Assembly (NCBI RefSeq): GCF_000147075.1
Contig: NC_014484.1
Span: 1,505,501 to 1,569,500, forward strand
Length of the DNA: 64,000 bases
Origin: Spirochaeta thermophila DSM 6192
GTDB taxonomy: Bacteria; Spirochaetota; Spirochaetia; Winmispirales; Winmispiraceae
Reading direction: 5' to 3'
The notes beneath the pieces were generated by a model. That model did not search any database and was not told where the DNA came from. It saw only the letters and a program-made list of their open reading frames with translations. Both the position numbers and the translations under genes were made by a program. This document shows positions 19,959 to 49,902 of this stretch, in pieces (position 1 is the first letter of the stretch; each line of letters begins with the position of its first letter).

Positions 19959-20774
19959 ATGTCAGAGATAGGGGGAGCGCGTACGCTCATCACGGGGGCG
20001 GCCTCCGGGTTCGGACGTCTCTTCGCAGTGAGGGTGGCGAGAGAAGGCGGACACCTGGTGCTCCTGGACAGGGACGCGGCGGGGCTCGAGGAGGCTGCGG
20101 CTTCGTGCAGGGGGTACGGGGTGAGGGTCTTTCCCTACGTGGTGGATCTCTCCTCTCGGGATGAGATCTTCCGTACGGCCGAGCGTATCAAGGCCGAGGC
20201 CGGGGCGGTGGACATCCTGGTGAACAACGCAGGGGTCGTGACGGGCACCTCGTTCCGGGAGGCGCCGGTGGAGAAGATCGAGGCCACGTTCGCGGTGAAC
20301 ACCCTGGCGCACTTCTGGCTGGTGAAGGCCTTTCTGGAGGAGATGATCGCCCGGAACCGGGGGCACATCGTGACGATCTCCTCTGCTGCGGGTATCATCG
20401 GGGTGCGGAGGCTCGCCGACTACTGCGCCTCGAAGTTCGCGGTGTTCGGATTCACCGAGGCCCTCCGTATGGAGTTCAAGAAGGAGGGGCTTCGCATCAA
20501 GACCACGATCGTGGCGCCCTACTATGCGAAGACCGGGATGTTCGAGGGCGTGAAGACCCGTGTCCCGTGGATGCTTCCCCTCCTCGAGCCCGAGTACGTG
20601 GTGGCACGGATCTTCAAGGCCATCAAGAAGAACAGGCCCCTCGTGGTACTGCCTCCGGTGGTGCGGAGTGTGTGGTTCTTCAGGCTCCTCGGGGTGCGGG
20701 TGCTCGATGCGATGGCCGATGTGCTCGGGGTGCATACCAGCATGGATACGTTCGTGGGAAGGAGGACCTCGTGA
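19959..20774 (+). CDS. Short-chain dehydrogenase/reductase
   Basis: A 271-residue classical SDR. The cofactor loop is T-G-A-A-S-G-F-G-R near residue 11, the N-N-A-G motif is present, and the catalytic Ser and Y-C-A-S-K lie near residues 140-158. The C terminus is hydrophobic and basic ([11 protein letters not shown]), which suggests membrane association. It resembles the group that acts on retinol- or steroid-like and long-chain alcohol substrates. The start has GAGGAGG upstream. Its stop overlaps the aldehyde dehydrogenase start by four bases (GTGA), so an alcohol-to-acid pathway through an aldehyde is a reasonable inference. Confidence 0.85.
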
Positions 20775-22366
20775 ACAGGACGTACACGGTGTCCCGTGAT
20801 CCGTATACCGGGGAGGAGTTGGGGAGGTTTCCGGTGCACACGAGCGAGGAGGTGCGCGAGGCGATCGCGCGGGCGCGGGAGGCCTCGCGGGTGTGGAGGT
20901 CGGTGCCGCCCCGGGAGCGGGCGCGGAGGCTCCTCAGGGTGCGGGAGGTGCTGGTGGAGGAGGGGGAGGCGATCGCCCTGGCGATAAGCCGCGAGAACGG
21001 GAAGGTGCCGACCGATGCGATGGCGACGGAGGTGTTTCCGGCGGCGGTGGCCCTCACCTACTACTGCAGGATGGCCCCGCGTTGGCTCAAGGACGAGCGG
21101 CCGGGGGGCGCGTCGGTGATCCTGGCGCACAAGCGGGTGCGGATCACCAGGGAGCCGTGGGGTGTGGTGGGGGTGATCTCTCCGTGGAACTACCCGTTCG
21201 CGATCCCGTTCTCCGAGGTGGTGTGCGCCCTCCTTGCGGGTAACGGGGTGGTGCTCAAGACGGCTTCGATAAGCCAGCTCGTGGCGCACAGGCTCGCCGG
21301 GTGCTTCGAGCGTGCGGATCTGCCGGAAGGGCTCTTCTCGCTGGTGAATGTGCCGGGGAGGGTGGCGGAGGAGTGCTTCCTGGGGCAGGGGGGTGTGGAC
21401 AAGTTGTGCTTCACGGGGTCGGTGGCGGTGGGGAGGCGGCTGGCCGAGCGGGCAGGGGCGAGGCTCGTGCCGGTGGTGCTCGAGCTGGGGGGGAACGATC
21501 CGGCCCTGGTGCTCGAGGATGCGGACCTGGATCGTGCGGCGTGGGGGATCGCGTGGGCGGGGTTCCAGAACGCGGGGCAGTCGTGCGGCGGGGTGGAGCG
21601 TGTGTACGTGCAGGAGGGGGTGTACGAGGCCTTCCTGGAGCGGCTCGCGGGGGTGCTGGAGGGGCTGCGCTACGGGCTGGACGGGAGGGTGGAGAACGAT
21701 CTCGCGGGGCTGAGCACGGAGGAGCAGGCGCGGGTGGTGAGGGAGCACGTGGAGGATGCGCTCGCGAGGGGGGCGCGGGTGTACTACCGGAAGGGGATCC
21801 CCGAGCCCTGGGCCGGGCATCCTCTTTCCGTGCCGCCTACGGTGCTGGTGGAGGTGGATCACTCGATGCGGGTGATGCGCGAGGAGACGTTCGGGCCGGT
21901 GGTGGGGGTGATGCGGGTGGGGAGCGTGGAGGAGGGGGTGCGGCTGGCGAACGAGGGGGGTATGGGGCTCACGGCGTCGGTGTGGAGCAGGGACAGGCGG
22001 AAGGCGCTGCGCATCGCCCGGATGCTGGAGGCGGGTGTGGTGACGGTGAACGATCACCTGATGAGTCACGGCCTGCCGCAGGCGCCGTGGGGTGGGTGGA
22101 AGGATTCGGGGCTGGGGTGGACGCATGGGAGGCGGGGGTTCGAGGAGATGGTGCGCCTCAAGGTGCTGGTGGACGATGTGCTCTCCCGCCTGCCGAAGCA
22201 GGTGTGGTGGCATCCGTACGGCGAGGGGAGCTTCGGGACGCTGGGGGCCGGGCTGCGGGCGCTGTACGGGAGGGGGGTGTGGGAGCGGGTGAAGGGGTGG
22301 GTGCGGCTGGTGCGGGGGGTGGTGGGGAAGGTGCGGGAGGGGAGAGGGGGCCGGGGAGAGGGCTAG
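20771..22366 (+). CDS. NAD(P)-dependent aldehyde dehydrogenase
   Basis: A 531-residue aldehyde dehydrogenase that oxidises aldehydes to acids. Recognisable are S-P-W-N-Y-P-F (NAD-binding loop), F-T-G-S-V-A-V-G, the general base Glu in L-E-L-G-G-N-D-P, and the catalytic Cys in G-Q-S-C-G-G. About 60 residues beyond the usual end are basic and aromatic and could attach to the membrane. GTG start with GGAGG upstream. Composition is striking, with GC content locally near 75-80 percent and mostly G-ending codons, unlike the SDR gene before it. Its TAG stop shares the bases CTAG with the stop of the facing helicase gene. A long-chain aldehyde substrate is inferred from the SDR partner. Confidence 0.88.
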   Translation: MNRTYTVSRDPYTGEELGRFPVHTSEEVREAIARAREASRVWRSVPPRERARRLLRVREVLVEEGEAIALAISRENGKVPTDAMATEVFPAAVALTYYCRMAPRWLKDERPGGASVILAHKRVRITREPWGVVGVISPWNYPFAIPFSEVVCALLAGNGVVLKTASISQLVAHRLAGCFERADLPEGLFSLVNVPGRVAEECFLGQGGVDKLCFTGSVAVGRRLAERAGARLVPVVLELGGNDPALVLEDADLDRAAWGIAWAGFQNAGQSCGGVERVYVQEGVYEAFLERLAGVLEGLRYGLDGRVENDLAGLSTEEQARVVREHVEDALARGARVYYRKGIPEPWAGHPLSVPPTVLVEVDHSMRVMREETFGPVVGVMRVGSVEEGVRLANEGGMGLTASVWSRDRRKALRIARMLEAGVVTVNDHLMSHGLPQAPWGGWKDSGLGWTHGRRGFEEMVRLKVLVDDVLSRLPKQVWWHPYGEGSFGTLGAGLRALYGRGVWERVKGWVRLVRGVVGKVREGRGGRGEG

Positions 22367-25300
22367 AAGAGGGTGTACTGGCGGGGGCCGCGGTCGGGGA
22401 GGGGTGCGGGGCGCCAGGGGAGGTGGGCGAGGAAGGGGGAGGGGACGCCGGAGAGGGACCGCCCCTTCAGGGTGCGCCGCCTCGCCATGGTGAGGACCAC
22501 CTCGCGTTTCGCGCGGGTGAGGGCCACGTAGAGGAGCCGACGCTCCTCTTCCTCGTCCGAGCCCTCGGTGGGAAACAGGGAGAAGGGGACCAGGCCCGCC
22601 TCACAGGCGGGGATGAAGACCACGTCGAACTCCAGGCCCTTGGCGGCGTGCATGGAGAGGAGGGAGACCTCCCCCTTCCTCCCCTCCACCCCCTCCATCC
22701 CCCCCGCCAGGCAGTCCGCCACCAGTTCCCGCACCGGAAGGTGCGGGAACCTCCCCACCAGCTCCTCCCACACCCGCAGATCCTCGCCCTCCAGCCCCCA
22801 CTCCCGCGCCACTCCTCCCCCCACCTCCCCTGCAGCCTGCTCCCACACACCCCCCTCACCCATCACCCGCGCCAGGCGCTCCCGCGCCCCCCTCGACAAC
22901 CGCACCCCCTCCCCCACCCGCCGGTATGGGATCCCATGGTTCCTGAACGCCTCCTCCAGGACATCCATCACCAGGTGGGTGCGGCACAGCACCCCTATCT
23001 CCTCCGGCGCCACCCCACCCTCATCCTCCACCACCTCGCTGTCGAACGAGAAGAACGTCGTCCCCCCCAACCGCTGCTCGATCTGCCTCGCGATGAACTC
23101 CGCCTCGCTCTCCGGGCTCGCACACTCCCACGCACTCACCCTCCCCCCCCCTCCCCTCGCCCGCATCCTCCGCCCCACCCCCTCACCCAGCACCCCCTCC
23201 GCCACCTCCAACACCTCCGCCGGGCAGCGGAAACTCTCTTCCAGCCGCACCACCCGCGCCCCATACTCCTCCACGAACCGCCCCATCCACCCGGCCGAGG
23301 CCCCGCGGAACCCGTAGATCGCCTGCGCAGGATCCCCTATCATACACACCACCCCCTCCCCCGTGGGCGCCATCCGCACGAGGAGCCCGTACTGCGCCGC
23401 ATTGAGATCCTGCGCCTCATCCACCAGGACCCACCGGCACTGCCCCCTCACCCACTCCCGTACCCCCTCCACCCCCTCGATGAGCCGGGCCGCCTGCAGG
23501 AGAAGATCATCCACATCGCAGGCCCCCCGCTCCGCCAGCAACCCCTCGTACACCCGCCACACCTCCCCCACCACTCCCTCCACCTCCTCCGGCCGCCTCC
23601 CCTCCCGCTTGAGCCGCTCCACCCTCCCCAGCCCCACCCTCCCCGCACCCACCCGCCTGCACGCCTCCTCCCACACCACCCTCCGCTCATCCCCCTCCAG
23701 CACCACAGGCGGCGCCCCGTACCCCGCCTCCCGGTGGAACCGCACGAGACACTCGTAGGCCCATGCGTGGAACGTCCCCACCCACACCCCCTCACCCCCC
23801 GCCACCCCGCGAAGCCGCTCCCGTATCTCCTCGGCCGCCTTCCGCGTGAAGGCGAGCACCGTGATCCCCCCCTCCCCCTGCTCCACCAACCGGGCCACAC
23901 GCCCCACCAGCACCCTCGTCTTCCCCGCCCCCGGCCCCGCCACCACACACAACTGCTCCCTCCCCGCCTCCACCACCTCCCTCTGCGCCCCGGTCAACCC
24001 TCCCCCCCTCACCTCCGCACCCCCCGACTCACCCTTCACCCGCGAGAGCATCCCGGGATCGAACCCGAGGAACGGCCGCACCGGCACCTCCGGCACCTCA
24101 TCCCCGCCGAAGAGCCCTCCTTCAGGCCTCCACCCCTCGGGGAACACCCGCACCACCCCGTACTGCCCATCGAACCCCTCCCTCACCCACACCCGCCGCT
24201 CCCGCATCCCCGCCACCCCCTCGGCCACCCAGCCGTCCACCCGGGCGATCTCCTCCACCGGCACCTCGAGCAACACCTGCAGCTCACCCCCCAACCTCCG
24301 CACCACCTCCAGATACCGACCCCTCACCGCCTTGGACTGCACCCCCTTCCCCTCGATCTCCGCCACGATCTCATCGAGCGGCACGAGCGAGTAGAACGGC
24401 GGAAACCGCTCCGGCTCGATCCTGTCCCGGTCCGCCAGCTGCACCACCCGATTCATCACCCCCACTGTGAGCGGCCTCCCGCACACAGGACACCGTCCCC
24501 CCCTCTCCAGCGTTTCCACCGGAGTGAGGCACACCCCGCACTTGCGGTGTCCGTCCAGGTGGTACTTCCCCTCCTCGGGGAAGAACTCCACCGTCCCCAG
24601 GAACCCCCTTCGCGTCTCGAGAGCCTCACGGATACCCGTGAACGAGAGCTCGGTGTCAAAGAGATTCGCCTCCCTCCCCAAATTCCCCGCCGAATGGGCA
24701 TCCGAGTTGGAAACCAGGGTGAACCTGTCGAGGAACGAGCAGAGCCAGTTCATGGGAGGATCGGACGAGAGCCCGGTCTCCACCGCGAAGATCTCCGACA
24801 CAAGATCGCGATAGCACTCCTCGATCGAATCGAACCCCGACTTGGAACCGAGCACCGAAAACCACGGGGTCCAGATGTGCGCCGGCACAAAGATCACCTC
24901 GGGACAGGCCTCGAGGGCCATCTCCAGGAGGTCCCGACTGTCCACCCCGAGGATGGGCCTCCCATCGGAGGCCAGGTTCCCCCTCCGCTCCAGGGCCCGT
25001 GCGAACCGCTCCACCGCCTCCAACGAAGGAAAGAGCACCACGTGGTGCACCTTCCGCACCCGCCGTCCGTCCGAGCCCTCGGCACTGTAGATGGTGCTGA
25101 TCTCACCCGAGAGCACGAAACGCGTAGGAGGACGTTCCAGGGCAAAGGCGAGCTCCCCCGCCTCGGCCGGCGAGGGGAGCACCTCACGCCTCAGCACGAA
25201 GAGCCCCTCTTCCGCAGGCTCGAGCACCTCGGCAAGCTCCTTCCGCCATGCCGGGTGGGTGCAGTCCCCCGTCCCCACCACCGCGATCCCCTTCACCCGC

Positions 25301-25389
25301 GCCCACACATCGAGGAGCTGGGCCGTGAGGAACTTGCTCGTCCCCCGAGAGAAGCGCGAGTGGGTGTGAAGATCGGCGATGAACCTCAT
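22363..25389 (-). CDS. Endonuclease Q-like PHP nuclease fused to UvrD/Rep superfamily 1 helicase
   Basis: A 1008-residue two-part repair protein. Residues 1 to about 410 match endonuclease Q, a PHP-family enzyme that nicks DNA 5' of deaminated bases. Seen are D-L-H-T-H-S-R-F-S (6-14), G-T-G-D-C-T-H-P, S-G-E-I-S-T-I-Y, P-A-H-I-W-T-P-W-F, S-N-S-D-A-H-S and a zinc site C284-x2-C287 with C300-x2-C303. Residues from about 460 are a UvrD-like helicase with A-G-P-G-A-G-K-T (484-491), V-D-E-A-Q-D (656-661), G-D-P-A-Q-A-I-Y-G-F-R-G, H-A-A-K-G-L-E and V-A-L-T-R-A-K. The start overlaps the dNTPase stop by four bases. GC content jumps from about codon 355 on. Either half could act alone in homologues; the joint role is inference. 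Confidence 0.92.
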   Translation of the reverse strand: MRFIADLHTHSRFSRGTSKFLTAQLLDVWARVKGIAVVGTGDCTHPAWRKELAEVLEPAEEGLFVLRREVLPSPAEAGELAFALERPPTRFVLSGEISTIYSAEGSDGRRVRKVHHVVLFPSLEAVERFARALERRGNLASDGRPILGVDSRDLLEMALEACPEVIFVPAHIWTPWFSVLGSKSGFDSIEECYRDLVSEIFAVETGLSSDPPMNWLCSFLDRFTLVSNSDAHSAGNLGREANLFDTELSFTGIREALETRRGFLGTVEFFPEEGKYHLDGHRKCGVCLTPVETLERGGRCPVCGRPLTVGVMNRVVQLADRDRIEPERFPPFYSLVPLDEIVAEIEGKGVQSKAVRGRYLEVVRRLGGELQVLLEVPVEEIARVDGWVAEGVAGMRERRVWVREGFDGQYGVVRVFPEGWRPEGGLFGGDEVPEVPVRPFLGFDPGMLSRVKGESGGAEVRGGGLTGAQREVVEAGREQLCVVAGPGAGKTRVLVGRVARLVEQGEGGITVLAFTRKAAEEIRERLRGVAGGEGVWVGTFHAWAYECLVRFHREAGYGAPPVVLEGDERRVVWEEACRRVGAGRVGLGRVERLKREGRRPEEVEGVVGEVWRVYEGLLAERGACDVDDLLLQAARLIEGVEGVREWVRGQCRWVLVDEAQDLNAAQYGLLVRMAPTGEGVVCMIGDPAQAIYGFRGASAGWMGRFVEEYGARVVRLEESFRCPAEVLEVAEGVLGEGVGRRMRARGGGGRVSAWECASPESEAEFIARQIEQRLGGTTFFSFDSEVVEDEGGVAPEEIGVLCRTHLVMDVLEEAFRNHGIPYRRVGEGVRLSRGARERLARVMGEGGVWEQAAGEVGGGVAREWGLEGEDLRVWEELVGRFPHLPVRELVADCLAGGMEGVEGRKGEVSLLSMHAAKGLEFDVVFIPACEAGLVPFSLFPTEGSDEEEERRLLYVALTRAKREVVLTMARRRTLKGRSLSGVPSPFLAHLPWRPAPLPDRGPRQYTLF

Positions 25390-26531
25390 TCCTCCTCCTC
25401 TATCACATCCTCGAACAGGAGGGAAAACCTCCGCGGCATCATCACCTCCATGGCACTCCTGAGGGCAAACTCGTCGGTCATCCCCGCGATATAGTCGAAG
25501 ACCACCCAGTCCTCCTCCCCCCGCTCCACATAGACAGCACGCATCTTGCCCACGTAGTCGCCGAACTGTCGTGCGAGCCGATTGTGTTCCCGTGCGTAAT
25601 GGTCGAGCTCCCATCCGTACCGGGAGAAGAGTTCGCCCAGGTAGTCGTGGAGGGTCCTGAGGATACGCTCGAAGTACTCGTGAAAAGAAGTGAGCCGTGG
25701 GCTCCGGTAGATGGAGCGGTAGTTGAACTCCAGGAGGACCATGAATGCCTCGTAGACCGGCTCGGAGAACCCGACCACCCCGTGGTCCATGGAGTAGGCG
25801 ATGAGATCCCTCACCAGGGTGTTGATGATCTCGCTGTTGGTGCTCCCCAGCACCCTCCGCGCCTCAGCCGGTACCTCATCCCGCCGTATAAGTCTGAGCT
25901 GGAGAGCATCCTCCAGATCCCTCCCCACATAGGCGATCCTGTCGGACATCCGCACCACACACCCCTCCCAGGTCGAAGGGTACCCCTCCACATCTTCGAG
26001 CGACTCGAGGACGCGCTCTCTCTGCTCAGGCCGGATCTCTCGCTCGAACCGTTCCCCGCAGTGGAGGACGATGCCGTCCCGCACCGCATAGGTGAGGTTG
26101 AGCCCCTGCCCGTACCCGGCCAGCAGATCCACCACCCGGAGGCTGTAGAGCTCGTGGTGGAAGGTCCGACCCCGCGGCATGTAGGAGGCGAGGATCTCCT
26201 CACCCAGGTGTCCGAAGGGCGCATGACCGAGGTCGTGCCCCACCCCTATAGCCCAAGCGAGGTCGCTGTCGAGCCCCAGTGCCCTGCAGATAGTGGCGGC
26301 GATGGTCGCCACGTGCATCACATGCTCGATCCTGGTGCAGATGTGGTCGTTCTCGGGGATGAAGAAGACCTGGGTCTTGTGCTTGAGCCTCCGGAAGGGA
26401 TAGGAGTGGATGATCGCCGTGGCGTCCCTGAAGTAGGCCCCGCGGGGATCGGTCCCCTCCTCGGGTCGGGGCCGTCTCCTCCGCCGGTAGACCCCATCGT
26501 CGAGAGGATTGACGAAGAAGAGGTTGCCCAT
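25386..26531 (-). CDS. HD-domain deoxynucleoside triphosphate triphosphohydrolase (dGTPase-like)
   Basis: A 381-residue HD phosphohydrolase of the dGTPase type, which cleaves dNTPs to deoxynucleoside and triphosphate. Signatures are R-R-L-K-H-K-T-Q-V-F, then R-I-E-H-V-M-H-V for the first metal-binding His, and G-H-D-L-G-H-A-P-F-G-H for the HD pair. The extended C-terminal helical part is present, so it is a full-length member. The start at 26531 lies seven bases after TACAGT, so the mRNA may be leaderless. It is the first gene of a two-gene operon with the endonuclease Q-UvrD fusion. Which dNTP it prefers, and whether it works as a housekeeping or defence enzyme, cannot be told from sequence. 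Confidence 0.88.
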   Translation of the reverse strand: MGNLFFVNPLDDGVYRRRRRPRPEEGTDPRGAYFRDATAIIHSYPFRRLKHKTQVFFIPENDHICTRIEHVMHVATIAATICRALGLDSDLAWAIGVGHDLGHAPFGHLGEEILASYMPRGRTFHHELYSLRVVDLLAGYGQGLNLTYAVRDGIVLHCGERFEREIRPEQRERVLESLEDVEGYPSTWEGCVVRMSDRIAYVGRDLEDALQLRLIRRDEVPAEARRVLGSTNSEIINTLVRDLIAYSMDHGVVGFSEPVYEAFMVLLEFNYRSIYRSPRLTSFHEYFERILRTLHDYLGELFSRYGWELDHYAREHNRLARQFGDYVGKMRAVYVERGEEDWVVFDYIAGMTDEFALRSAMEVMMPRRFSLLFEDVIEEEE

Positions 26532-26538
26532 CGTCCCT

Positions 26539-26567
26539 ACTGTACGGCCAGGCCCGGCGAAAGGCAA
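26539..26567 (-). promoter_or_regulatory. Promoter of the dNTPase-EndoQ/UvrD operon, probably giving leaderless mRNA
   Basis: TTGCCT (26567-26562), 17-bp spacer, TACAGT (26544-26539) on the minus strand, with seven bases to the ATG at 26531. Confidence 0.6.
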
Positions 26568-44956: not shown

Positions 44957-46798
44957 ATGGCGGTAGATCGGCTCCACCTGATGAGCGCGCTCGAGGGGTA
45001 CATCCTCTCGGTTTCCGGATGGCGAAAGGTGTTCGCGGCCTCGGGGGATGAGCAGGATGCCTCCCCCCGGATCACCGAGGCGGACAGGGTGCTGGCGGTG
45101 TGCGCAGGCAGGGTGATCGGTCGGTTCTTCAGGGAGCGGGGAGAGGGGGCCGGGGTGTTGCTCGCGCGTGATTCCCGGCCCACCGGGGAGGCGATCTGCA
45201 GGGCGATCGCGGCGGGGCTGTGCATGGAGGGGGTGGGGGTGCGGTATGCGGGGATCGCGGCGGCGCCGGAGGTGATGGCCTTCTCTGCGGCAGACCCGGA
45301 GCCGGCCGGGTTCGTGTACGTGTCTGCGAGCCACAACCCGGTGGGGCACAATGGGATTAAGGTGGGCTCGAGGGGAGGGGTGCTGGGAGCAAGGGAGGCG
45401 GGGGAGCTCATCCGGCGGTTCAGGGAGGAGGTACGAGGGCTCGGCGAGACGGAGGCAGCGGGGCTCCTCGGGGCAGAGGCGCCTCCGGGGGTGTGGGAGG
45501 AGGAGGCGAGGTGGAAGGAAGGGGCGCTCAGGGCGTACGGGGGGTTCGTGCGCCGGGTGATCACGGGAGGGGAGGCGGAGGAGGTGGTCCGGAGGTGGGC
45601 GGAGCTCGGGGAGGGGGTGCGCAGGAGAGGGGCGGTGATAGTGGGGGAGCTGAACGGGAGCGCCCGGGGGGCAAGCGTGGACAGGGATGTGCTCGAGGAC
45701 CTAGGGTGCGAGGTGCGTCTCTTCAACGCAGCGCCCGGAGGGTTCGTCCACGAGATCCTGCCCGAGGGGGAGTCGCTGGAGATGTGCGCGGACCTGGTGA
45801 GGGGGGTGGTGGAGGAGCGGGGGTGCGAGGCGCTGGGCTACGTGCCGGACTGCGACGGCGACAGGGGGAACCTGGTGTACGGGGCGCCGGGGGTGGGGGT
45901 GAGGGTGCCGGGGGCGCAGGAGGTGTTCGCGCTGGCGGTGCTGGGGGAGCTGGCCTGGCTGGATGCGGTGCTGCCGGGCGGGGTGCGGGGGCACAGGGTG
46001 GCGGTGGTGGCGAACGGGCCGACGTCGCTGCGGGTGGAGGAGGTGGCGGGGGCGTTCGGGGCGCAGGTGGTGCGGACGGAGGTGGGGGAGGCGCACGTGG
46101 TGGGGAAGGCGGAGGAGCTGCGGCGCGAGGGGTGGGTGGTGCGGGTGATGGGGGAAGGGTCGAACGGGGGGAGCATCGTCTGGCCGGCACGGGTACGCGA
46201 TCCCCTCGCCACGCTCGGCTCGGTGCTCAAGCTGCTCGCCTTGCGCGATGAGCCCTATGCCCTCTTCAGACGATGGTGCACGCTCCGTGGCATCCCCTAC
46301 GAGCCCTCCTTCACCCTCGCCGACGTGCTCGCCTCGCTTCCCTCCTATCGCACCACCGGAACGGGGGAGGAGGCGGCCCGGCTCACCATCCGGTCAAGCG
46401 ATCAGGCGGCCTTCAAGGCCTCCTATGAGCGCCTCTTCCTCTCGGACTGGGAGGGCCGTGCTCAGGAGCTCCGGCGCCGCTTCGGCATCACCGGCTTCGA
46501 GGAACACAACCACGAGGGTACCGTGACGAGGGTGGGCTTCGGCCCCGCGTTCCGCACCGGCGCGCAGAAAGGGGGCCTGAGGATCCTCTTCAAAAACGAA
46601 AAAGGAGAGCCGTGCGCCTTCATGTGGATGCGCAAATCGGGCACCGAGCCGCTCTTCCGCGTGCTGATCGACGCGAGAGCCGATATCCCCGGACTCTACG
46701 ACTACCTCCTGGAGTGGCAGCACGGCCTCATCCGACGCGCGGACGAGGAGGCCGCCGCCGGCCTTAGCCCCGGTTCAACACGAAGATGCTCGCATTGA
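44957..46798 (+). CDS. Phosphoglucomutase / phosphomannomutase family
   Basis: A 613-residue alpha-D-phosphohexomutase that moves phosphate between C1 and C6 of hexoses. The phosphoserine loop is S-A-S-H-N-P-V-G-H-N-G-I-K, the magnesium loop D-C-D-G-D-R-G-N, the sugar loop G-E-G-S-N-G-G and the phosphate-binding loop R-K-S-G-T-E-P-L-F-R. It is longer than enteric homologues, in the 570-620 residue class. The start at 44957 has AGAGGAAGG upstream. From about 45,100 to 46,185 the codons are overwhelmingly G-ending and GC content is very high, then use returns abruptly to the C-ending style. The last 35 bp overlap the convergent tspO gene. Confidence 0.9.
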   Translation: MAVDRLHLMSALEGYILSVSGWRKVFAASGDEQDASPRITEADRVLAVCAGRVIGRFFRERGEGAGVLLARDSRPTGEAICRAIAAGLCMEGVGVRYAGIAAAPEVMAFSAADPEPAGFVYVSASHNPVGHNGIKVGSRGGVLGAREAGELIRRFREEVRGLGETEAAGLLGAEAPPGVWEEEARWKEGALRAYGGFVRRVITGGEAEEVVRRWAELGEGVRRRGAVIVGELNGSARGASVDRDVLEDLGCEVRLFNAAPGGFVHEILPEGESLEMCADLVRGVVEERGCEALGYVPDCDGDRGNLVYGAPGVGVRVPGAQEVFALAVLGELAWLDAVLPGGVRGHRVAVVANGPTSLRVEEVAGAFGAQVVRTEVGEAHVVGKAEELRREGWVVRVMGEGSNGGSIVWPARVRDPLATLGSVLKLLALRDEPYALFRRWCTLRGIPYEPSFTLADVLASLPSYRTTGTGEEAARLTIRSSDQAAFKASYERLFLSDWEGRAQELRRRFGITGFEEHNHEGTVTRVGFGPAFRTGAQKGGLRILFKNEKGEPCAFMWMRKSGTEPLFRVLIDARADIPGLYDYLLEWQHGLIRRADEEAAAGLSPGSTRRCSH

Positions 46799-47246
46799 GC
46801 ACGGTGGCATAGCTCACCCACACCAGGTACGGGATGAGGAGATAGCCTGCCCACCGCTCGATCCGCACACTCATCACGATGAGGGCGAGGATGGCCACCC
46901 AGAGGAGCACGATGTCGACCAGCGCAAGACCGGGGCTCTGCCGCGCAAAGAAGAAGAACGACCAGAGGACATTGAGGACGAGCTGCACCACAAAGAGGAG
47001 TACCACGAGGCGGACCTGGTACGAGAGGCCCGTGCGGATCACGAGATAGGCGGAGATTCCCATGAGGATGAAGAGGACCGTCCAGACAGGGGCGAACAAC
47101 CAGTTGGGAGGGGTGAACGAGGGCTTCTGGATGGTGCTGTACCAGCCCTCGATGGCGGGCATGGTAAAGGAAGAACCCAAGAAGCCCGCTCCCAGACATA
47201 CCCCCACGGCGAGTACCAGCAGGATGATCTCCTTGAGCAGACTCAT
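46764..47246 (-). CDS. tspO: TspO/MBR family tryptophan-rich sensory protein
   Basis: A 160-residue integral membrane protein with five predicted helices. Family signatures are W-Y-S-T-I-Q-K-P-S-F-T-P-P-N-W-L-F-A-P-V-W near residues 36-56 and N-V-L-W-S-F-F-F-F-A in helix three. TspO proteins bind porphyrins and related ligands and often modulate stress or pigment responses; the role here is unknown. The start has AAGGAGG upstream and a good promoter is present. Confidence 0.92.
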   Translation of the reverse strand: MSLLKEIILLVLAVGVCLGAGFLGSSFTMPAIEGWYSTIQKPSFTPPNWLFAPVWTVLFILMGISAYLVIRTGLSYQVRLVVLLFVVQLVLNVLWSFFFFARQSPGLALVDIVLLWVAILALIVMSVRIERWAGYLLIPYLVWVSYATVLNASIFVLNRG

Positions 47247-47276
47247 TACCTCACCTCCTTGAACACTTCTCCTTCA

Positions 47277-47305
47277 ACTATAGTACCTCGCCCCCTCCCC
47301 TTCAA
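47277..47305 (-). promoter_or_regulatory. Promoter of tspO
   Basis: TTGAAG (47305-47300), 17-bp spacer, TATAGT (47282-47277) on the minus strand, within the 62-bp gap after the MutY-like gene. Confidence 0.7.
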
Positions 47306-47308
47306 CCC

Positions 47309-48127
47309 TCACGGCACGTACACCCTCTCCCCCTCCCTCACCACCAGCCCCTCCCGCTCCAGCGCCTCCACCACCCCTTCCACCACCTCCCTCTCCCTCC
47401 CCACCTCCCGCGCCAGATCCCCCACCCCGCAGCCCCCCTTCCCCACCAGCACCCGCAACACCGCCCCCCGCACCTGCCGCACCGACCCCTCGAACCGCCC
47501 CTGGCGCCGGTAGTGCGCGCTCCTGCGCCCCGCATTCCCCCTCCGCGCCTTGATCGCCGCCCCCAGATCCATCAAGGCGTAGTACCACGTGCGGACATCA
47601 TCCCGGTAGAGGGTCTCCTCAACCAGCGGGAGGATCTCCGCATCCCTCACCCCCTCCCTCCCCGGGAAGAACCGATCGAGGAACACCGTACGGATATTCG
47701 TCTCCACAAACACACAGGGCCGCCCGTAGGCGAACGTCGCCACGGCCCGCGCCGTGTACGGCCCCACCATGGGAAGCCCCTCCAGCACCCCTGGCTCATC
47801 CGGCAGCCTCCCGCCCCACCGCTCCACCACAATCCGGGCGCTCTCCCACACCCCCCTCGCCCGCCTGTTGTACCCCAACCCCTGCCACACCTCCAGCACC
47901 TCCCCCAGCCTCGCCCCGGCGAGCACCTCCCACGAGGGAAACCGCGCCAGGAACTCACCGTACTTGCCCACCACCCGGGAGGTCTGTGTCTGCTGGAGCA
48001 TCATCTCCGAGACGAAGATCGCGTACGGATCACGCGTCCGCCGCCACGGGAAATCACGCCCCTCGCGCCGGTGGAACCCCAGCACCTCCTCCTGGAACCC
48101 CCTCACCACCGCCGACCCCAGCCTCAT
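47309..48127 (-). CDS. MutY-like HhH-GPD DNA glycosylase lacking the iron-sulphur cluster
   Basis: A 272-residue base-excision glycosylase related to adenine glycosylase MutY. The helix-hairpin-helix is G-L-P-M-V-G-P-Y-T-A (117-126), and the general acid Glu41 lies in S-E-M-M-L-Q-Q-T-Q. The usual catalytic Asp is Glu142 (V-E-T-N). The C-x6-C-x2-C-x5-C cluster that should follow residue 190 is absent: the region A-I-K-A-R-R-G-N-A-G-R-R holds no Cys. There is no C-terminal NUDIX-like domain for 8-oxoG recognition; instead a short winged-helix-like segment (about 222-272) ends the protein. Substrate cannot be assumed to be A:8-oxoG. It is third in the trpS-HAD-MutY operon, one base after the HAD stop. 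Confidence 0.82.
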   Translation of the reverse strand: MRLGSAVVRGFQEEVLGFHRREGRDFPWRRTRDPYAIFVSEMMLQQTQTSRVVGKYGEFLARFPSWEVLAGARLGEVLEVWQGLGYNRRARGVWESARIVVERWGGRLPDEPGVLEGLPMVGPYTARAVATFAYGRPCVFVETNIRTVFLDRFFPGREGVRDAEILPLVEETLYRDDVRTWYYALMDLGAAIKARRGNAGRRSAHYRRQGRFEGSVRQVRGAVLRVLVGKGGCGVGDLAREVGREREVVEGVVEALEREGLVVREGERVYVP

Positions 48128-48128
48128 C

Positions 48129-48842
48129 CTACCTCCCCACCCCCACCCCACACCCCAGCCACTCCCACACCCGCTCCGCGGAAAACTCCCCCATCCCCCC
48201 TTCGAACAACACATCCGCCTGGTAGAACACCTCCGGGTAGCGATCCTTCACCAGCGTGGGGATCGCCACGCACACCATCCCCGCATCCAACCCCGCCCGC
48301 ACCCCCGGCTCCGAGTCCTCGAAGACCACACACCCACCCGGCTCCACCCCAAGCCTCCCCGCCGCCTCGAGGAACACATCCGGCGCCGGCTTGGGACGCG
48401 CCACCTCGTCCGCCGACACCACCACCCGGAAGAACCCCGCGAGCCCCGTCTCTTCGAGCAGCACCTCGATAATCCCACGGGGCGACCCCGACGCCAGGGC
48501 ACACGGCATCCCCGCCTCCTCAAGGAGCCCCAACAACCTCCGCATCTCGGGGAACACCTGCACCCTGCCCCGCGCATGTGCGAGAAACACCTCCATCTTC
48601 TCCCTTGCCAGCTCCTCATCGGACCTGGGGATCTCCTTCTGCGTACGCATCCACTCGATGAACCCCTTCGTCCCCCTCCCGATCATGTACTCGCGCAGGG
48701 CATCATCGTGGGGGATCCCGTACCGATCGAGAAAGGCGCAGTCCGCATCCCAATACACATCCTCGGAATTGACGAGCGTCCCATCCATATCGAAGATCGC
48801 CGCCCGGATCCCAGGCGGCGCGCACTCACGCCTCTTACGCAT
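48129..48842 (-). CDS. HAD-superfamily hydrolase, beta-phosphoglucomutase-like
   Basis: A 237-residue HAD phosphatase or mutase. Motif I is F-D-M-D-G-T-L-V (residues 16-23), the helical cap follows, then motif II A-S-G-S, Lys in R-P-K-P-A-P-D-V-F, and motif [10 protein letters not shown]. The G-x-x-D-x-x-K-P-x-P-D-x-F form places it with phosphatases of small phosphometabolites or beta-phosphoglucomutase. The start overlaps the end of trpS by eight bases and has GGAG upstream. Composition becomes strongly G-ending in its second half. Confidence 0.85.
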
Positions 48843-49902
48843 CCGTACCCCCCTTCTCCTGCCTCTTTCTCCGCCGCTCCGCACCCCGGCTTATCCTGTT
48901 CCACACCCCGGCGAGCCCCATCGCCTTCCTCACCTCGATGAGGGTCTTCCTCCCCTCCTCCCGCATCCGCATGGTCCCCTCGTAGAGGATCTCGTCCACC
49001 AGACCCGTCTGCTGGCGGAAGTACTCACGCCGCTCTCGGATGGGATCCAGGAAGGCATTGAGCGCCCTCGCGAGCTTCTCCTTCACCTCCACGTCCCCCA
49101 CCTTCCCCTCCCGGTACCGACGCTTGAGATCCTCCACCTCCTCCTTGTTGGAATTGAAGATATCGTGATAGATGAACACTGGGTTCCCCTCGACCCTCCC
49201 CGGTATATCCGCGCGCACCCGGTTCGGATCCGTATACATCTTGAATACCTTCTTCTCTACGGTCTTAGGATCGTCGGAGAGGAGGATGGCGTTCCCGAGC
49301 GACTTGGACATCTTCGCCGCACCATCGATCCCCACCAGGGTGGGAACTTCGCCCACCAGCGGGTCGGGCACGGGAAAGACCTCTCCGTAGAGGAAATTGA
49401 ATCTGCGCGCGATCTCCCGGGTGAGCTCCACGTGCGGCACATTGTCCTTCCCCACCGGCACCACGTGGGCCCGGGGGAGGAGGATGTCGGCGGCCTGGAG
49501 CACCGGATACCCGAGGAGCCCCAGAGGCATCTCCTCCAGGTGCGCCGCCTGCGCCATCTCCTTGAGCGTCGGGATACGCTGGAGACGAGGGACCGTCACA
49601 AGCATCTCGAAGAAGAGGTTGAGCTCATACACCTCGGGAACGGCGGACTGCAGGTAGATCACCGACTTCGCAGGATCGATCCCGCACGCCAGGTAGTCGA
49701 GCACCATCTCCCTCGCATTGTCCGCGATCGCCTCGACGTCCTTTTTCTCCGGCTTCGTGGTGAGCATGTGCAGGTCGGCGATGATAAAGAAACACTCGTA
49801 CTCGTCTTGGAGCTTCACCCTGTTTGCGAGCGAACCCACATAGTGTCCCAGGTGCAGCTTCCCCGTCGGTCTGTCACCCGTGAGAATGCGCTTTCGTTCC
49901 AT
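48835..49902 (-). CDS. trpS: Tryptophanyl-tRNA synthetase
   Basis: A 355-residue class I synthetase that charges tRNA-Trp. The N terminus [16 protein letters not shown] gives the HIGH-type motif, and [10 protein letters not shown] the KMSKS loop. The Trp-binding region has [11 protein letters not shown]. The C-terminal 25 residues are strongly basic (R-R-R-K-R-Q-E-K-G), beyond the usual end. AAGGAG precedes the start. It is first in the operon with the HAD hydrolase and MutY-like glycosylase. Confidence 0.95.

Follow-up and report, generated by a model that had tools for sequence, protein, structure and literature searches.

An endonuclease Q fused to a UvrD-type helicase in a spirochaete: a candidate clamp-linked protein for starting the excision repair of deaminated bases

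In the spirochaete genome studied here (2,472,645 bp in a single contig), one gene joins endonuclease Q (EndoQ) to a UvrD-type helicase, each with an intact active site, and its product ends in a conserved motif of the type that binds the bacterial replication clamp. The reading favoured here, to which we give a probability of roughly 0.6, is that this one clamp-linked polypeptide starts the excision repair of deaminated bases: it would nick the DNA and then displace the damaged strand by means of its own helicase. Positions are those of the window, that is, the whole stretch of 64,000 nucleotides that was analysed.

In the literature (PMC6202378), EndoQ is mostly an archaeal enzyme that only limited bacterial groups possess, a distribution which is changed by the presence of a protein with EndoQ, helicase and clamp motif in about 20 bacterial phyla. 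Moreover, removal of the EndoQ-nicked lesion has been proposed in the literature, where no demonstration of it was found, and this step becomes directly testable with one purified protein. In a search of mostly open literature, no published study of an EndoQ-helicase fusion was found, either in this role or in another one. A broader proposal is put forward more tentatively, at somewhat less than even odds, namely that bacterial excision repair of deaminated bases is widespread, with one clamp-tethered nickase-helicase acting in many phyla alongside glycosylases and supplying the lesion removal that follows the EndoQ nick.

Gene organization

The fusion gene lies at 22363..25389 on the minus strand and encodes 1008 amino acids in a single uninterrupted open reading frame, which confirms the joining of the two domains described in an earlier, sequence-only reading of this DNA. 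Its product was aligned with 62 relatives, and the sister species, a genus-mate, has a protein with the same start that is also 1008 aa long. The two proteins are 90% identical, with a dN/dS of 0.17 overall, about 0.09 in the EndoQ half and 0.28 in the helicase half; both halves are under purifying selection in the genus. The start codon shares 4 bp (ATGA) with the stop of the upstream gene, encoding a dGTPase of the HD-domain type (25386..26567, minus strand; TIGR01353 above cut-off), and a converging aldehyde dehydrogenase gene adjoins the 3' end. A GGDEF gene is also among its neighbours in the window.

The EndoQ half

The EndoQ domain comprises residues 1-415 (24145..25389, minus strand). 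It matched the structures 5zb8 and 7k30 in phmmer, with a value of 4e-61 for 5zb8 (Pyrococcus furiosus EndoQ, PfuEndoQ) and of 1.2e-62 in a further comparison with characterised EndoQ, and the AlphaFold model of the fusion (pLDDT 85, pTM 0.79) matched 5zb8 in Foldseek with a TM of 0.88-0.89 of the target, at 32% identity. The PHP metal site is formed by D6, H8, H10, D42, E96, H115, H171, E204, D230 and H232. Over the 62 aligned relatives, D6, H10, D42, E96, H115, H171, E204, G206, S208, D230 and H232 are invariant, and H8 is conserved in at least 90%. None of the EndoQ catalytic residues is missing, and over 62-89 relatives almost all of them are invariant, which bears out the earlier remark that the PHP metal residues look intact. 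Alanine mutants of PfuEndoQ E76, H84 and H139, which are essential ligands, are dead (PMC8307549); H84 and H139 correspond to H115 and H171 by direct phmmer alignment, and E76 to E96 by position and invariance, in a stretch left unaligned by phmmer. The pocket residues reported to keep T and A out of PfuEndoQ by steric hindrance, H139, G169 and S171 (PMC8307549), correspond to H171, G206 and S208 of the fusion, all invariant. The EndoQ half is predicted to nick on the 5' side of deaminated bases.

A zinc site with four cysteines had also been proposed. The four-ligand module is there (residues 281-303; 24481..24549, minus strand; placed by alignment to PfuEndoQ), but not the four cysteines, the ligands probably being H281, C284, C300 and C303. 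These columns are conserved in 88/89, 89/89, 89/89 and 89/89 relatives, respectively, while C287, an extra cysteine that the sequence-only reading evidently included among its four, is found in 43/89. H281 is preferred over C287 because of this conservation and because the first cysteine of the PfuEndoQ site aligns with it.

The archaeal enzyme (P. furiosus PF1551; 5zb8, 7k30-33) shares with this half the full-length fold (TM 0.88), the catalytic Zn ligands, the pocket residues, the Zn-binding domain and the position of a clamp tail after the domain, whereas it has no helicase, carries a PIP box for PCNA instead of a beta-clamp motif, and has four Cys at the site that is His-Cys3 in the fusion family. 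Bacterial EndoQ of the stand-alone kind (Bacillus pumilus/subtilis; TIGR00375), of about 390-430 aa and without helicase, belongs to the same domain family. With 175 bits against a curated cut-off of 326.6, the fusion is homologous to TIGR00375 but is not a member by the NCBI rule; no spirochaete match lies above that cut-off.

The helicase half and the linker

The UvrD/PcrA-type SF1A helicase occupies residues 464-990 (22420..24000, minus strand), with PF00580 (1.3e-44) and PF13361 (8e-26) both above cut-off, phmmer matches to UvrD (2e-54) and PcrA (6e-52), and Foldseek TM values of 0.62-0.68 of the UvrD/PcrA targets. Motifs Q, I, Ia, II, III, IV, V and VI are all present, the catalytic residues of I-VI being invariant or nearly so. 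On the minus strand, motif I, AGPGAGKT (aa 484-491; 23917..23940), has A484, G485, P486, G487, G489, K490 and T491 invariant; motif II, DEAQ (aa 657-660; 23410..23421), has D657, E658 and Q660; and motif VI, YVALTRAKR (aa 954-962; 22504..22530), has T958 and R959. The claim of a complete superfamily 1 helicase with all main motifs stands as regards the motifs, but not as regards completeness, since the 2B subdomain (aa 831-901; 22687..22899, minus strand; by alignment to UvrD) is under half the UvrD length, with about 71 residues between the aligned blocks vs about 166 in E. coli UvrD. The 2B subdomain is the regulatory, partner-binding part of UvrD and Rep, and its reduction suggests that the helicase half is regulated otherwise than these enzymes. 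In addition, subdomain 2A contains a family-specific insert, GGxxFFSxDS (aa 775-790; 23020..23067, minus strand), which in the alignment has no counterpart in E. coli UvrD; its G776 is invariant, and G775 and D783 are conserved in at least 90% of the 62 relatives. Apart from the reduced 2B, the insert and a tail that consists of a clamp motif without the PcrA-type extension, the fusion shares with UvrD, PcrA and Rep all the motifs and the 1A/1B/2A architecture, and by homology it is predicted to unwind with 3'->5' polarity.

The genome also encodes two ordinary UvrD-type paralogues and a 1206-aa relative of RecB/AddA size; identity of the helicase half to the paralogues is 27-35%. As separate UvrD-type proteins exist, the fusion helicase would not be the housekeeping enzyme.

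The linker (aa 416-463; 24001..24144, minus strand) is variable, with a median identity to relatives of 17%, and a short helix is modelled in it (aa 445-452, pLDDT about 83-85). An FDxxxY/F-type segment recurs in the linkers of relatives (26/62 by a loose pattern; window about 24030-24100); modelled as the short helix at aa 445-452, it is a possible docking element.

Clamp-binding-like motifs and proposed mechanism

The bacterial beta-clamp pentapeptide is QL(S/D)LF-like and usually C-terminal (PMC9690074). The fusion protein ends RQYTLF, a looser form, whose residues 1004-1008, QYTLF (22366..22380, minus strand), include Q1004 and L1007, each at least 90% conserved, and the alignment consensus of the 62 relatives ends QLxLF. 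Within the last 14 residues, Q..[LM][FL] occurs in 79 of the 83 relatives with intact tails vs 6 of 544 other proteins encoded at the same loci, taken as controls, and the strict QL[SD]LF in 29/83 vs 0/544. Pentapeptides of this type are also found in DnaE (QGFLF) and MutS (QPELF) of the source genome, and the tail of a UvrD paralogue has none. A further motif, GGLF (aa 424-427; 24109..24120, minus strand; F427 at least 90% conserved), forms a degenerate clamp/PIP-like position at the junction of the two halves, where relatives have Q..[LM][FL] in 27/89 and LF in 65/89 cases (1.7% and 18% in shuffles). This weak copy lies at the position of the C-terminal PIP box of archaeal EndoQ, through which that enzyme binds PCNA and is stimulated in its nicking (PMC4858679); a beta-clamp-type motif has also been reported in the C-termini of bacterial EndoQ (PMC4858679). 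The fusion tail probably docks on the beta clamp, a tethering favoured by the enrichment over control tails, the likeness to the DnaE and MutS motifs and the archaeal precedent. The C-terminal motif, with its weaker junction partner, is the main addition to the sequence-only reading.

In the preferred mechanism, the EndoQ half would flip out hypoxanthine or uracil, and possibly AP sites, and nick on their 5' side. The UvrD-type half would load at this nick and move 3'->5' along the undamaged strand, so that the damaged strand would be displaced from its new 5' end for resynthesis, while the C-terminal motif would hold the enzyme on the beta clamp and bring the polymerase to the 3'-OH. With a 5' nick and a 3'->5' helicase, the lesion could be removed only through travel on the undamaged strand. 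UvrD behaves in this way after incision in nucleotide excision repair and mismatch repair, displacing the damaged strand by running on the other one. The catalytic activities, the polarity, the clamp binding, the order of the steps and the choice of lesion are what we infer from sequence. The mechanism is supported by its fit to the helicase-removal branch that the original description of EndoQ (PMC4357722) already included in its repair scheme, and it is favoured by the conserved EndoQ catalytic and pocket residues, by helicase motifs I-VI and by the match of the model to both folds. The idea of one protein that nicks and then unwinds is thus plausible and is the best reading, although UvrD behaviour may not transfer to a protein with so short a 2B.

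EndoQ also cuts U and Hx in single-stranded DNA (PMC11354406), which would suit a helicase acting before the nick. The fusion would then be a clamp-bound, replication-coupled scanner that moves along single-stranded DNA or at forks and brings EndoQ to deaminated bases, and both the conservation of the clamp motif and the reduction of 2B agree with this. Nevertheless, nicks and gaps are the classical loading sites of SF1A helicases of the UvrD type, and such an order of events is considered unlikely.

Repair context

Neither EndoV nor an AAG-type hypoxanthine glycosylase was found in the source genome, which has UDG and three HhH-GPD proteins. Hypoxanthine is therefore the likeliest unmet repair need, unless an AlkA-type enzyme is present, and the lack of EndoV and AAG, together with the separate UvrD paralogues, makes a specialised helicase plausible. 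Against the nick-and-displace mechanism, the pathway may be redundant given UDG and the HhH-GPD glycosylases. Among relatives, UDG is found in 59/60 and EndoV in 2/60; an anticorrelation of UDG with the fusion was also considered, but is uninformative with UDG in 59/60. An HhH-GPD DNA glycosylase homologue lies within the window, at about 47681-48013 on the minus strand.

As uracil is already covered by UDG, the EndoQ half might instead cut mainly AP sites, oxidised pyrimidines or some other lesion. PfuEndoQ acts on a wide variety of lesions (PMC8307549), and family-specific residues (I172, W173 and F177) lie near the active site of the fusion, H171 being followed by IW here vs AF in archaeal EndoQ, a difference that also counts against the preferred mechanism. 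The family has, however, conserved the residues of the catalytic site and of the steric pocket, and the genome is without EndoV and AAG, and we regard a shift away from deaminated bases as quite improbable. Fusion of repair enzymes for deaminated bases is also seen in FacAGT-EndoV, an alkyltransferase-EndoV protein (PMC4357722), but its nuclease is unrelated and it has no helicase.

Distribution and evolution

In the GTDB species genomes scanned, at least 584 loci encode a relative. The best 80 of these, picked by similarity to the fusion so that they show breadth and not frequency, have both domains in one open reading frame in 80/80 cases, which rules out a chance or annotation artefact. This survey of fusion-bearing genomes, suggested in the sequence-only reading, reached about 20 phyla among the best 80 loci, among them actinomycetes from soil, Melainabacteria from the gut, and termite-gut Treponema and Bacteroidales, carriers which we take from their lifestyle to be mostly mesophiles. 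The proposed advantage at high temperature is not supported by this spread over mostly mesophilic habitats, and an invention specific to thermophiles is rejected. The fusion is old and common.

Within Spirochaetota, an EndoQ-type match was found in 44 of 295 genomes; by open-frame length, these are about 30 fusions (two of them interrupted), 12 short genes and 2 fragments. The interrupted ones are L146 (G088), with an in-frame TAG, and L147 (G141), with a frameshift. A second, distant family of stand-alone EndoQ-like proteins in this phylum (L118, L123, L140, L142-L145) starts DLHSHSxYxGG, scores about 150 bits, forms its own tree group and has an altered zinc region.

In a tree of the EndoQ domain, built by a quick method and with several long branches, the fusions form one large group. 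Two EndoQ-only genes fall within it, one in the sister genus (G002, L113:8412-9761), where the corresponding locus still lies beside dGTPase but no longer holds the helicase, and the other in G272 (L139:4508-5833). In G014 (L114:7261-10353), a single in-frame TGA stands between EndoQ, whose last residues are GQLALF, and the helicase, which closes with RQLPLFDA; this is either gene fission or a draft-genome error. These cases imply that the helicase is not strictly needed, which weighs against the nick-and-displace mechanism, as does the much lower conservation of the helicase half (median identity 37% vs 55% for the EndoQ half, with EndoQ more conserved in 1770/1770 pairs). Since EndoQ is the more conserved and the helicase is lost or split in sister lineages, EndoQ appears to be the core, to which the helicase is an aid that can be lost.

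Among the related loci compared, the fusion has no recurrent gene neighbours, which fits a self-contained enzyme. Very improbably, it could be an anti-phage nuclease-helicase against uracil-containing or otherwise modified phage DNA, as a defence role has been suggested for Bacillus EndoQ (according to the citing passage in PMC8307549) and PADLOC GajB models match the helicase half, but these matches cover only the generic UvrD part, related loci show neither recurrent neighbours nor defence islands, the fusion was not found on plasmids nor any relative in the phage or viral contigs searched, and the clamp motif points to host replication. A defence island or mobile element was rejected on the same evidence, and identity with GajB of Gabija because the partner GajA is not adjacent in the window and related loci have no conserved partner. 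An operon logic with dGTPase was likewise rejected as a general feature, since among related loci dGTPase stands next to the EndoQ gene only in G001 and G002, that is, in the source genus and the sister genus. The dGTPase gene overlaps the fusion translationally in the source genus and lies beside EndoQ in G002; a link to the dNTP pool is possible, though limited to this family.

GC-skew switches

Sharp local switches of GC skew (+0.35 to +0.5 followed by -0.5) occur where GC is near 0.72, roughly 24 kb apart, at 20750-24500 and 45000-49000 of the window and, on the source contig (G000:C1), near 1528166, 1551693-1552350 and 1576960. The octamer GGTGCTGG points to the switch centre from both sides, with 17 copies in the window vs 3 expected. 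The switches may arise partly from the GTG/CTG codon bias of converging genes; the first one, which lies inside the fusion gene and not at its end, runs counter to this. Between the source and the sister species, synonymous divergence falls to 0.03-0.16 at this first switch, vs about 0.5 on the EndoQ/dGTPase side.
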